A stretch of DNA of 64,000 nucleotides from the NCBI RefSeq assembly GCF_002160985.1, contig NZ_NFLQ01000003.1:186001-250000 (forward strand), in the 5' to 3' direction. The notes under the pieces are model-generated. The model was not told where the DNA came from. It ran no database searches and saw only the letters and a list, made by a program, of their open reading frames with translations. The stretch's first letter is position 1. Each line of letters opens with the position of its first letter. This DNA is from Lachnoclostridium sp. An118. GTDB lineage: Bacteria > Bacillota > Clostridia > Lachnospirales > Lachnospiraceae. This document shows positions 12,233 through 25,056 of the stretch, piece by piece. The position numbers and the translations under genes were made by a program.

Positions 12233-12607
12233 AGCAATTATGGCAGGGCATGATTTGTTGAAATCCCCTCTTTCCTGTCCTGCCCTCTGCTTTTACACAT
12301 GAGAGCCTATGGCTTTCGCCACTGTTCTTTGACAAGTGAATAAAGCAGACAGATACGTTTGTGATACAGCGAGCCACGGGGACTGTACGCCACGACCTTT
12401 TCCATAAGGGGAAGCGAGCGACCCATGCAGTGATCCGAGAGTGACCGTTGGAAAAGTCGCTTTGCCACGACCTGTATTCACAGAATAATGATACATCCGC
12501 ATGGTGCGGTTCTGCCCACAGGAATGGGAATGGCTGAAATGCCAGTGGAGCTTGCCAAAGCCGTCTGTCTGCTTCCATAAGACACACAGTAAAGGGGGTG
12601 CATACTT
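12233..12607 (+). other. Gene-free 375-base stretch between orf8 and xis
   Basis: No convincing coding frame. A 10-base direct repeat GCCACGACCT occurs at 12389-12398 and 12464-12473, and TTTTCCA (about 12397-12403) can pair with TGGAAAA (12449-12455). It may hold the xis-int promoter and binding sites for element regulators. I see no clear SigA promoter or terminator. Confidence 0.4.
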
Positions 12608-21657: not shown

Positions 21658-22941
21658 ATGGATCAGAAAATCTATGACAGTTATGTGGAAATACTAAAGA
21701 GAGAGCTTGTGCCGGCTCTGGGCTGCACAGAGCCCATTGCGCTGGCCTATGCCTCAGCAAAATCCGTGGAGCTGCTGGAAGCTTTCCCGGAGCGCATGGA
21801 GGCCCTGTGCAGCGGGAATATCATCAAAAATGTGAAGGGCGTCAAAGTCCCCTGCTCCGGCGGTCTCAAGGGCGTGGAGGCTGCCGTCATCCTGGGGGCT
21901 GTCGGGGGAGACGCCTCCCGGGAGCTGGAGGTTCTGGAGAGCGTGCGGGAGGAGGACCGGGCACGCACAAATGCGCTGCTGAAGGAGCACTTCTGCACCT
22001 GCCTCCTCAAAGAGGGAGTGCCCAACCTCTTCATTGAGATCCGCGCCTACAGGGGAGCGGACAGCTCCGTAGTGAGGATTGAGCAGAAGCACACCAGCAT
22101 CACCTATATGGCACGCAACGGCCGCACTCTGTTTGAGAAGGAGACTTCCCGCCAGGAGCACCAGGCGGACAAATCCCTCCTCAGTCTGCAGGACATCGTC
22201 ACCTTCGCAAGGGAGGTGGACCTGGCCGATGTAAGAGAGTACCTGGAACGCCAGATCCAGTACAACATGGCCATCTCCGAGGAGGGACTGCAGCATGAGT
22301 GGGGCGCCGGCGTAGGGCAGATGGTGCTGGAGGAATTCGGGCACGACACGCGCTGGAAGGCCATCGCCAGAGCTGCCGCAGGGTCAGACGCCCGCATGAG
22401 CGGCTGCTCCCTGCCGGTCATCATCATCTCCGGCTCCGGCAATCAGGGCATGACCTGCTCCCTGCCGGTCATCGAGTACGCCCGCTCCACAGGGAAATCC
22501 CAGGAGGAGCTCCTGCGGGCCCTGTGTGTCTCCAACCTCACCGCCCAGGACCAGAAGCGCTACATCGGCCCTCTCTCCGCTTACTGCGGGGCTGTCTGCG
22601 CTGCCGCCGGGGCCGGCGCCGGCATCACCTTCCTGTGCGGCGGCACAGCCGGGCAGATCGAGAACACAGTGGTGAACACCATTGTCAACGCCGGGGGCAT
22701 TACCTGTGACGGCGCCAAGCCAAGCTGCGCCGCCAAGATATTCTCCTCCCTCCAGGCCGCCTTCCTCGGCCACAGCCTGGCCATGCGTGGCTTTCGCTTC
22801 GAGGCCGGCGAGGGCCTTGCCATGGACACCGCCGAAGATACCGTGAAGGCCATCGGCTACATGGGCCGGGAGGGCATGCGTCAGACCGACATCGAAATCC
22901 TCAATCTGATGCTCGGGAAGACAGATATATCCTCCTTGTAG
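21658..22941 (+). CDS. cyuA: L-cysteine desulfidase family protein
   Basis: A 427-residue protein of the serine dehydratase alpha-like / UPF0597 family. It has LGCTEPIALAYASAKS near the N-terminus, SGCSLPVIIISGSGNQGM in the middle and conserved Cys residues in YCGAVCAA, FLCGG, ITCDG and PSCAAKIFSS that would hold a 4Fe-4S cluster. CyuA-type enzymes break L-cysteine into sulfide, ammonia and pyruvate under anaerobic conditions. The start has AAAGGGG upstream. Its last 41 bases overlap the 3' end of the convergent ABC-F gene. The exact substrate is inferred from the family. Confidence 0.88.
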   Translation: MDQKIYDSYVEILKRELVPALGCTEPIALAYASAKSVELLEAFPERMEALCSGNIIKNVKGVKVPCSGGLKGVEAAVILGAVGGDASRELEVLESVREEDRARTNALLKEHFCTCLLKEGVPNLFIEIRAYRGADSSVVRIEQKHTSITYMARNGRTLFEKETSRQEHQADKSLLSLQDIVTFAREVDLADVREYLERQIQYNMAISEEGLQHEWGAGVGQMVLEEFGHDTRWKAIARAAAGSDARMSGCSLPVIIISGSGNQGMTCSLPVIEYARSTGKSQEELLRALCVSNLTAQDQKRYIGPLSAYCGAVCAAAGAGAGITFLCGGTAGQIENTVVNTIVNAGGITCDGAKPSCAAKIFSSLQAAFLGHSLAMRGFRFEAGEGLAMDTAEDTVKAIGYMGREGMRQTDIEILNLMLGKTDISSL

Positions 22942-24412
22942 ACACACTCTCGGCAAAAGCCCTGTCATGCTCCACCAGGAGCATGGTGGGGCTATATTTT
23001 TGTATCAGCCCGGCAATCTGTCCTCTGGAAAAAATATCAATATAATTCATGGGCTCATCCCAGATGTACAGATGTGCCTGCTGGCTCAGGCTGGCCGCCA
23101 GTAGCACTTTTTTCTTCTGCCCCAGGCTGTAGTCCTCCATCGGCTTTTCAAACTGCGTTCTGGAAAAGTCCATCTTCCGCAGCAGGGCCATAAAGAGCGT
23201 CAGGTCCATCCCCCGCTCCCTGGCAAGGTCACGCAGATTTCCCGACAGTCCTCCCGGATCCTGGGGCACGTAGGACAGGACAAGGCCCGGCGCCAGGTCG
23301 ATACGCCCTCCGGCAAGGCAGGTATCCTCCCCCGAGACAGCTCCCAGTATGGCCCGGAGCACCGTGGATTTCCCGGAGCCGTTCCCCCCGGCAAGGAGCA
23401 CACGCTCCCCCTGGTCTATGTGCATGCTCCATTTTTCAAGCACAGTCCGCTCTCCGTAGGAGAGCGCCACATCCTCCATCTGCACCAGCCGCCTTTTGTG
23501 GTGGATAAGAGGGCATATCTTCAGCTCCTCCGCCGTCTCCACATTTTTCAAAAGCCTTCTCTTTTCCTCCGCTGCTGACTGCATCCGGCTCTCTATATTT
23601 TTGGAGCGCTTCATCATCTTGGCCGCCCTGTGGCCCACAAACCCCCTGTCCGGCTTCAGTCCCCCGGCCCCTGCGCCCTTCTTTGTCTTTTCCACAGCCG
23701 CCGACCAGCGCTCCGTGCGGGCGGCCGCCGCCTCCAGGCGACGGATATCCTTTTTCAGCCTCTCATTTTCCCCCTGCTCAAAGGCATCCTTCTTCGCCTT
23801 CTCCGCCTCCCAGGTGGTGAAATCTCCCCGGACCACTTCCATATCCCTCCGGTTGATGGCCAGGATGTGGTCCACACACCCGTCCAGGAAATACCGGTCA
23901 TGGGACACGAGGATAAATCCCTTCTTTCCCCGCAGATATCTCATCAGGCTCTCCCTGGCCTCCATGTCCAGATGGTTGGTGGGCTCGTCGATGAGAAGGA
24001 ACGCATTTTCCCTGGCAAACAGAGCCGCCAGCATGACTCTCGTCTGCTCGCCTCCGCTTAAGGTGTCAAAGGGCCGGTACAGGATTTCCGGGTCCATGTC
24101 CAGGCAGGTCAGCTCCCTGCACACCTTCCACAGCTCATAAGACGGGGCCGCCTCCCCTATCACCTCTATCACATTGGCCTGCATATGCTGCACGGAGAAT
24201 GGGAAATACTCCATCTCCACACTGGCCCGGATACTGCCCCCATACTCATACTCTCCCGCGAGAAGCTTGAGAAGGGTGGTCTTCCCCCGGCCGTTCCTCC
24301 CTGTGAGCCCCAGCTTCCAGTCTGTGTCTACCACGAAGGACACGTCCTCAAAGACCGGCTCGATCCCTCTGTCGTAGCAGAAGCTCAGATGTTCCACCTG
24401 TATCATTGACAT
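22901..24412 (-). CDS. ABC-F ribosomal protection protein, Lsa type
   Basis: A 503-residue soluble protein with two ABC domains and no membrane domain. First Walker A is GRNGRGKTT (38-46), with signature LSGGEQTR and FLLIDEPTNHLD. The second domain has GGNGSGKST and YSLGQKKKV, with LYIWDEPMNYID. The basic inter-domain linker (about 195-320) is the ribosome-reaching arm. The start SMIQVEHLSFCYD and DTDWKLGLTGRNGRGKTT closely recall Lsa/Vga-group proteins, which displace lincosamides, pleuromutilins and streptogramin A from the ribosome. The ATG at 24412 follows GAGGAGGA at 8 bases. The upstream leader supports an antibiotic-responsive role; resistance itself is inferred. Confidence 0.9.
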   Translation of the reverse strand: MSMIQVEHLSFCYDRGIEPVFEDVSFVVDTDWKLGLTGRNGRGKTTLLKLLAGEYEYGGSIRASVEMEYFPFSVQHMQANVIEVIGEAAPSYELWKVCRELTCLDMDPEILYRPFDTLSGGEQTRVMLAALFARENAFLLIDEPTNHLDMEARESLMRYLRGKKGFILVSHDRYFLDGCVDHILAINRRDMEVVRGDFTTWEAEKAKKDAFEQGENERLKKDIRRLEAAAARTERWSAAVEKTKKGAGAGGLKPDRGFVGHRAAKMMKRSKNIESRMQSAAEEKRRLLKNVETAEELKICPLIHHKRRLVQMEDVALSYGERTVLEKWSMHIDQGERVLLAGGNGSGKSTVLRAILGAVSGEDTCLAGGRIDLAPGLVLSYVPQDPGGLSGNLRDLARERGMDLTLFMALLRKMDFSRTQFEKPMEDYSLGQKKKVLLAASLSQQAHLYIWDEPMNYIDIFSRGQIAGLIQKYSPTMLLVEHDRAFAESVSTRRIYLSSRASD

Positions 24413-24463
24413 AGCGTCATTCCTCCTCTCAGGGCGCACGCAGACAGCTCCTTCCCGGCATAC

Positions 24464-24493
24464 AAAAGGGACACGGGAAAATTCCCGTGTCCC
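24464..24493 (-). terminator. Attenuator-type terminator before the ABC-F gene
   Basis: On the reverse strand a 10-12 base stem (GGGACACGGG arms, 24468-24479 with 24482-24493) is followed by TTTT (24464-24467). It lies between the promoter at 24672-24700 and the ABC-F start at 24412, so readthrough is needed for expression. TCCCGGC upstream (about 24585-24591) is complementary to GCCGGGA just after the hairpin, a possible competing pairing. Confidence 0.8.
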
Positions 24494-24618
24494 AGCAGTA
24501 TTTTTCGGATCATATTTTACATGGATACAAGGATTTTCATTTCTGCATGCGCACAAAATCTCTCCCGCCGCAGGCATTTTGCAGCCGGGACATTTTACGC
24601 CTATATGGATTTCATATA

Positions 24619-24639
24619 TTATCTGCAGAAATTCTTCAT
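24619..24639 (-). CDS. Six-residue leader peptide of the ABC-F gene
   Basis: A reverse-strand ATG at 24637-24639, preceded by AAAGGGGTG, encodes MKNFCR then TAA. It starts about 30 bases after the promoter -10. Short translated leaders ahead of a terminator are typical of antibiotic-inducible ARE ABC-F genes, where drug-stalled ribosomes on the leader prevent termination. A second mini-frame (MKSI) follows shortly after. Translation is inferred from spacing alone. Confidence 0.5.
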   Translation of the reverse strand: MKNFCR

Positions 24640-24671
24640 CCTTTCACCCCTTTGTCTTTTCTTTCCCGTCC

Positions 24672-24700
24672 AAAATACCACAGCCTGCTCTGTCTGTCAA
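24672..24700 (-). promoter_or_regulatory. Strong promoter of the ABC-F leader
   Basis: On the reverse strand: a perfect TTGACA (24695-24700), a 17-base spacer and TATTTT (24672-24677). It overlaps the stop of the upstream membrane-protein gene. The transcript would have a leader of about 250 bases with a mini-ORF and terminator. Confidence 0.8.
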
Positions 24701-25056
24701 CACCTGACCACGCTGCTGTTCCTGTACACACTGAGAAGGATGCCGGCGTACAGGCAGGTCACGCAGAGATTGGAGCCTCCCAGCGTGTAGAAGGGCATAT
24801 AGGCCGCTGTCCGGTCCGCTCGGTAGCCGTCCCTCTCCCCCGGTGCACCGCTGGCCCAGCTGGCTGCGCAGACCAGCAGGAGGGCGGCTGCCACGGCTGT
24901 TCCCAGGCGCATCAGCAGGAGGCGCACCTCCCTGCCGAACCAGCCCTTTGCCGTCGCTGCAAACAGCAGGGCAAAGCCGATGAATGTAAAAACCGATGTC
25001 ACAAAGCCGCTCCCACTGCCAAACAGCCACCCGGCGGCAGAAAACGCCCCGGACAA
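24697..25056 (-). CDS. Hypothetical membrane protein with unclear start
   Basis: About 119 residues, three hydrophobic segments (about 8-35, 45-65 and 95-112) and a polar loop SGAPGERDGYRADRT. The only available start is TTG at 25056 with no ribosome binding site. The frame is open for a further stretch to a stop near 25125 without any ATG or GTG, so this may be the remnant of a gene that lost its 5' end. No family recognised. Inverted repeats (GGCTGCC, CAGAGAA arms) lie at about 25080-25120 just upstream. Confidence 0.4.
   Translation of the reverse strand: MSGAFSAAGWLFGSGSGFVTSVFTFIGFALLFAATAKGWFGREVRLLLMRLGTAVAAALLLVCAASWASGAPGERDGYRADRTAAYMPFYTLGGSNLCVTCLYAGILLSVYRNSSVVRC

Follow-up and report, generated by a model that had tools for sequence, protein, structure and literature searches.

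A conserved short leader and a putative ribosome-mediated attenuator upstream of an Lsa-like ABC-F gene in Lachnoclostridium sp. An118

An ABC-F gene on the chromosome of Lachnoclostridium sp. An118 is preceded by a promoter, a six-codon open reading frame, and an intrinsic terminator, which raises the question of whether its transcription is controlled by ribosomes that stall on the leader in the presence of an antibiotic. The window analyzed here is a stretch of 64,000 nucleotides (contig NZ_NFLQ01000003.1, positions 186,001 to 250,000), and all positions refer to its first letter. Ribosome-mediated attenuation of the ABC-F gene had been proposed in an earlier note made from the sequence alone, and it is supported here by the leader, the promoter, the terminator, and their conservation in relatives. 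We put the probability at about 0.83 that positions 24412–24700 (Table 1) attenuate transcription by way of ribosomes on the leader, as in vmlR and cplR.

Table 1. Positions of the putative attenuator elements and of the ABC-F gene in the window
Feature	Position	Strand	Basis
Sigma-70 type promoter TTGACA-17-TATTTT, extended -10 TG	24672..24700	(-)	Sequence
-35 box TTGACA	24700-24695	(-)	Perfect match
-10 box TATTTT, TG upstream	24677-24672	(-)	4/6 match only
Leader Shine-Dalgarno stretch AAAGGGGTG, containing GGGGTG (24650-24645)	24645..24653	(-)	Sequence
Leader ORF ATG AAG AAT TTC TGC AGA TAA (MKNFCR + stop)	24619..24639	(-)	Sequence, relatives
Small conserved hairpin ATATGAAATCCATAT directly 3' of the leader stop	24603..24617	(-)	RNAalifold (six sequences), alignment
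3' arm TGCAGAAAT, complement of leader ATTTCTGCA	24539..24547	(-)	Pairing across relatives
GAAAATCCTTGTATCC segment, including ATCCTTGTATCC; candidate antiterminator strand	24523..24538	(-)	Folds, pairing tests
Intrinsic terminator hairpin, 11 pairs, then TTTTGT (24467-24462)	24468..24493	(-)	Scan; -21.8 kcal/mol
ABC-F gene Shine-Dalgarno AGGAGGA	24421..24427	(-)	Sequence
Lsa-like ABC-F protein gene, 503 aa + stop, start ATG 24412	22901..24412	(-)	NCBIfam profiles

The ABC-F protein, scanned without its start methionine, scored 441.2 bits against the NCBIfam profile of ribosomal protection-like ABC-F proteins (NF000355), which is above the cut-off of 380, and 657.1 bits against the Lsa profile (NF000167), which is under the curated cut-off of 750. 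The likeness to Lsa that had been noted earlier stands, with a score short of the curated Lsa threshold. The closest solved relative was Lsa(A) (7nhk, 432 bits), and the second-best match within the same genome reached only 97 bits. The gene probably guards ribosomes against certain antibiotics, and related ABC-F genes (E up to 1e-120) were present in 159 of the 397 family genomes. A longer N-terminus was considered (the ABC-F frame is open back to 24577 across the terminator, giving 558 aa from that ATG) and was dropped after the upstream sequences of relatives were inspected.

Three neighboring frames were also recorded. A convergent gene for 427 aa (21658–22941, forward strand), which we tentatively take to be cyuA-like (cysteine desulfidase/UPF0597), overlaps the end of the ABC-F gene by 41 bases and was present in seven loci of the window's clade with 78–83% identity. 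A LURP-one-related gene (LOR, PF04525; 25278–25748, forward strand) is transcribed away from the ABC-F gene, and its relative was found only in L064 (57% identical) among loci L009–L069. The 3' end of a 119-aa open frame (24697–25056, reverse strand) lies within the -35 box; the frame had no Pfam or NCBIfam match, and its residues 86–118 were 67% identical in L012, L038, and L039.

Plain scans for the control elements were by themselves little proof, as six promoter-like sites were found in 3.2 kb against 2.3 expected and six terminator-like sites against 2.5 expected; conservation settles the matter. The promoter TTGACA-17-TATTTT recurs in L031, and L010 has TTGACA-17-TATCGT. Promoter scores of at least 11 (of 13) were obtained for 26 of 70 loci and for none of 70 shuffled controls, while L011, L012, L038, and L042 scored below 11. 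The promoter had been called perfect, a description that fits its -35 box and fails for its -10 box. Within 24300–24900, no Rfam family reached its gathering score. Elsewhere in the window, positions 12485–12548 of the forward strand scored 39.2 bits for RF02913 (pemK RNA), whose gathering score is 34.8.

For the comparison with relatives, 59 of the loci L001–L069 were retained after removal of the own-genome paralogues L002–L008, the partial loci L032 and L033, and L034, which had 26% identity. Adding L070–L149 gave 139 upstream regions, 136 of which had at least 200 bases (L013, L059, and L126 were left out). The window's clade received 100/100 support in the tree of the 59 proteins and includes, among its named members, two Claveliimonas, two Candidatus Blautia, and Eubacterium sp. 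ER2. All ten rows of this clade carried the leader MKNFCR, MKIFCR, or MKTFCR at a distance of 227 to 316 bases from the gene, with protein identities of 63–100%, and a G-rich stretch precedes the leader ATG in the upstream regions of the clade relatives too. The six-codon leader MKNFCR is present as first described, and it is conserved. It is because of such conservation that we consider the leader, promoter, and terminator a genuine attenuator.

Beyond the clade, many other Lachnospiraceae orthologues have leaders of the form M...SC[R/K]*. By a plain pattern, a short ORF ending in [SFTLAI]C with or without R/K was found in 76 of the 136 upstream regions, some of these by chance, and 60 regions were without a leader of that type; a stricter pattern that also demanded a Shine-Dalgarno sequence selected 70 loci, of which 62 were distinct. 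In the remaining upstream regions, MRR, MRK, MKR, MIIR, or MKNR leaders were found, or none was detected. The leaders of related ABC-F genes among L014–L149 are graded in length (MRR/MRK, MIIR/MKNR, MIIISR, and MIIISCR), and to judge from their sequences, it looks as if one leader had gained or lost codons singly.

Leader types, with labels that were partly assigned by hand, grouped on the protein tree: they required 19 changes, shuffled labels required 35.3, and none of 200 shuffles came down to 19; L013 and L059 were too short for a call, and L043 was labeled as having none despite MSIYSCK at -524. The FCR ending also occurred outside the window's clade in L042, L048, and L053. When genomes of the family were searched, the window-type pattern gave one match each in 2 of 397 genomes, both of the window's genus, and its reversed control gave no matches in the 397. 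A broader pattern, which does not catch the window's own leader, matched 23 times, in 22 of the 299 genomes searched (twice with the reversed control), and 17 of the 23 lay directly upstream of ABC-F genes when coordinates were matched by eye. Of the six matches away from ABC-F genes, five were within other long open frames and one (L172) was at the start of such a frame; none was retained as a case of the leader preceding another gene.

The second half of the leader in the window, ATTTCTGCA, is complementary to the post-stop segment TGCAGAAAT, and the Shine-Dalgarno stretch pairs with ATCCTTGTATCC, extending a conserved alternative helix (SL-1) that would belong to the repressed state. The leader arm and its partner read TTTTCTGCA/TGCAGAAAA in L010, CTTTCTGCA/TGCAGAAAG in L011, and CATTCTTGC/GCAGGAATG in L118, and the first base pair of the helix changes on both sides together in L010 and L011. 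Averaged over the 62 distinct loci, a locus's own arms scored 21.3 for pairing, compared with 18.0 (sd 0.35) for arms permuted among loci, and 0 of 2000 permutations were as high; since the loci share ancestry, this and the other permutation results exaggerate independence. The window's own score was matched by 1.2% of plain shuffles.

The helix also appeared in the predicted folds. For the window, RNAfold gave SL-1 and the terminator, with the leader and its Shine-Dalgarno stretch in one long hairpin that has the ATG within an internal loop, and RNAalifold with six clade sequences gave the SL-1 hairpin, the small post-stop hairpin, and the terminator. In the clade alignment, 3 of the 37 predicted pairs varied on both sides, none of them within SL-1, and the covariation term was unfavourable (+1.78); for L010 and L011, MAFFT appears to have misaligned the 3' arm here. 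Across the wider set of relatives, the leader arm and the downstream segment covary, and the helix acts as the anti-antiterminator in our best model.

What is conserved in the leader was examined at the level of codons. Because a leader pattern that admits just some codons ahead of Cys yields a partly circular codon table, the count was made with any codon allowed at that place. Among the resulting 65 distinct leaders, Ser before Cys (49 codons) was always encoded by TCT or TCC, and Arg after Cys (24 codons) was always encoded by AGA. The Cys-less leaders L090 (Tyr) and L015 (Arg) have 3' partners that follow the altered letters. When 24 hand-picked leaders without a plain SC or FC ending were matched to the DNA downstream of them, the scores ranged from 13.6 to 27.4, several of them no higher than the shuffled background, and the partner of L044 was off the expected arm. 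The frozen synonymous sites, together with the partner changes in L090 and L015, suggest that the leader letters, more than the peptide, are the main conserved thing, seemingly for the sake of RNA pairing. The earlier note had named a lack of protein-like conservation of the leader as a refuting result; the leader is kept in relatives, but with its synonymous sites frozen, protein-like conservation is not a suitable refutation test.

These data bear directly on the possibility that the peptide is the sensor, in which case the nascent chain, with Ser/Phe-Cys(-Arg/Lys) at its end, would arrest the drug-bound ribosome near the leader end. Such arrest of a drug-bound ribosome by the nascent chain is the mode of MsrDL and ErmCL. 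In favour of a peptide sensor, the ending recurs in frame: ATG and TGC were in one frame in each of the 26 distinct loci that satisfied a strict motif test blind to frame (108 of the 136 loci failed it, the window included), with ATG-TGC spacings of 12, 15, and 18. A constraint on the position of the nearby stop would, however, explain the kept frame. The frozen Ser and Arg codons, the matching partner strands of the two Cys-less leaders, and the MRR, MRK, and MIIR leaders of other orthologues also speak against a peptide sensor, which we consider unlikely. If the letters are indeed kept for pairing, a leader peptide can recur as a side effect of it, and consensus peptides of uORFs should be read with caution.

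The terminator hairpin with its T-run, described earlier as a 12-base hairpin, is present with a stem of 11 pairs and a 4-base loop; 12 pairs are formed only with a 2-base loop. Between leader and gene, an intrinsic terminator of -9 kcal/mol or lower was found in 59 of the 62 distinct loci. The effect of a stalled ribosome was modeled by blocking -16 to +16 around the leader ATG and folding the RNA up to the terminator loop. In the window, the number of bases in the terminator 5' arm and loop that pair with upstream sequence went from 3 to 13 of 16, with GAAAATCCTTGTATCC (24538–24523) paired to GGGACACGGGAATTTTC (24493–24477). In 11 further loci (the set of 12 was hand-picked from the 70), upstream pairing increased in nine and decreased in two (L040, from 7 to 6; L109, from 15 to 11), and the new terminator partner in L010 differs from the SL-1 3' arm. 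The terminator 5' arm of the masked window stayed occupied until 21 of the 26 terminator bases had been made. Even with the ribosome there, the minimum-energy structure at full length retains the terminator; as the terminator wins energetically beyond those 21 bases, antitermination would have to be kinetic, for which the short T-run would be helpful.

Compared with dinucleotide shuffles, the antiterminator of the window had a p value of 0.30, or 0.075 with a strand two bases longer. The corresponding values in the clade were 0.36 (L036), 0.39 (L010), 0.04 (L011), and 0.08 (L038), only L011 being below 0.05, and when arms were exchanged, some foreign clade arms out-paired the own arm with the terminator. 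The window's own antiterminator is weakly supported. Outside the clade, the freed arm was complementary to the terminator 3' arm, with p < 0.05 in 42 of 54 distinct loci, and 0 of 2000 permutations reached the observed 3'-arm pairing in 59 loci. For the terminator 5' arm, p < 0.05 was reached by 3 of these 54 loci, which is close to chance, although in the full set of 59 loci the observed mean was equalled by just 11 of 2000 permutations. One tentative reading, to which we give less than even odds, is that a single homologous switch exists in two wirings: in most Lachnospiraceae with the leader, the coding letters would be echoed in the terminator 3' arm, the one freed strand being able to pair with this arm or with the leader, and in the window's clade this echo would have been lost, the freed strand taking the 5' arm instead, while the peptides drift with the helix.

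The statistical weakness of the window's antiterminator is what could be expected if there were no switch, that is, if a fixed terminator ended or damped transcription behind a chance short ORF. The conservation of the leader, its covariation with the downstream segment, and its tie to one gene family argue against this explanation and make it very unlikely. An attenuator reading charged tRNA at the lone Cys codon under cysteine (or arginine) starvation is less likely still. The Cys codon recurs, although the search pattern required Cys, and the cysteine desulfidase-like neighbor is conserved in the seven clade loci. However, attenuators of amino-acid biosynthesis (trp/cys type) contain successive codons that specify the amino acid they sense and are kept in relatives, and the leader here has one Cys codon rather than a run, with Cys missing from L090, L015, and L044. 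The neighbor is, moreover, convergent, and the flanks covered for the other loci among L009–L069 did not contain it; the controlled gene is of the ribosome-protection type. The least credible switch is the one suggested in the earlier note, in which TCCCGGC (24590–24584) and GCCGGGA (24459–24453) compete with the terminator: the heptamers are both in the window and mutually complementary, but they occur in 0 of 9 clade relatives, and GCCGGGA, being located past the terminator, would be transcribed too late to compete.

For the preferred reading, a ribosome-mediated attenuator, we infer that the leader is translated, that a drug stalls the ribosome on it, that an antiterminator forms in this species, and that the gene is thereby induced. 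In the uninduced state, ribosomes would translate the six leader codons and depart, the leader's second half, together with the Shine-Dalgarno stretch, would fold onto 24547–24523 (SL-1, the anti-antiterminator), the terminator at 24493–24468 would form, and transcription would end. Under induction, a blocker of early elongation would pin the ribosome at the leader start; lincosamides, streptogramin A, and pleuromutilins are the presumed classes, from the relationship to Lsa. The footprint of the stalled ribosome would mask the Shine-Dalgarno stretch and the leader arm, so that SL-1 would not form, and the freed 3' arm would seize the terminator 5' arm while the polymerase clears the short T-run, allowing transcription of the ABC-F gene. 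If true, gut commensals would possess inducible, antibiotic-sensing control of a gene of the ribosome-protection type, together with a leader family that has testable base-pairing rules.

Several features of this model have counterparts in known systems. In vmlR of Bacillus subtilis, the uORF MIN is located in a bulge of SL-1, which serves as the anti-antiterminator; a terminator, an antiterminator (by prediction), a pause hairpin, and a hairpin sequestering the Shine-Dalgarno sequence are also described (PMC9226507). The uORFs of vmlR and cplR were found experimentally to be needed for drug induction (PMC9226507, PMC10201436). Our locus resembles vmlR in the chromosomal ABC-F gene, the tiny uORF inside the first hairpin, the intrinsic terminator, and, more tentatively, the antiterminator predicted upon block of the first hairpin, and it differs in the leader itself, as the uORF described for vmlR has three codons (MIN, with MDN, MDK, and MRK elsewhere) compared with MKNFCR (PMC9226507). 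It shares the short uORF in a 5' hairpin and the terminator with cplR of Clostridioides difficile, for which full-length mRNA is reported to be induced by the drug; unlike our locus, cplR is described with the uORF MR[I/M] and with a terminator hairpin containing the Shine-Dalgarno sequence of the gene, whereas the hairpin here stops approximately 55 bases upstream of the ABC-F start (PMC10201436). The same source gives MK[L/Q] as the uORF of VmlR2 and MAGN as that of lsa(A); the latter gene, which encodes the nearest solved protein, also has its uORF upstream, but MAGN is dissimilar to M..FCR or M...SC[RK] (PMC10201436).

None of the uORFs named from these sources and from PMC12421871 (MIN, MR[I/M], MK[L/Q], MAGN, MLV, and MVGDDDISG) resembles M...SC[RK] or M..FCR, and the leader family was not found in the portions of the open-licence literature covered, including those of the uORF4u paper (PMC10219788). 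According to PMC12421871, Streptomyces are5sc and tiaA also have a uORF and a predicted terminator/antiterminator, and ribosomes are stalled at the start codon by lincosamides, streptogramin A, and tiamulin; their uORFs (MLV in are5sc and MVGDDDISG in tiaA) are, unlike the present leader, actinobacterial. Attenuators of this kind are already known, and the leader that such an attenuator would use here, or rather the leader that it would use in the window and its relatives is new among the open-licence papers searched.
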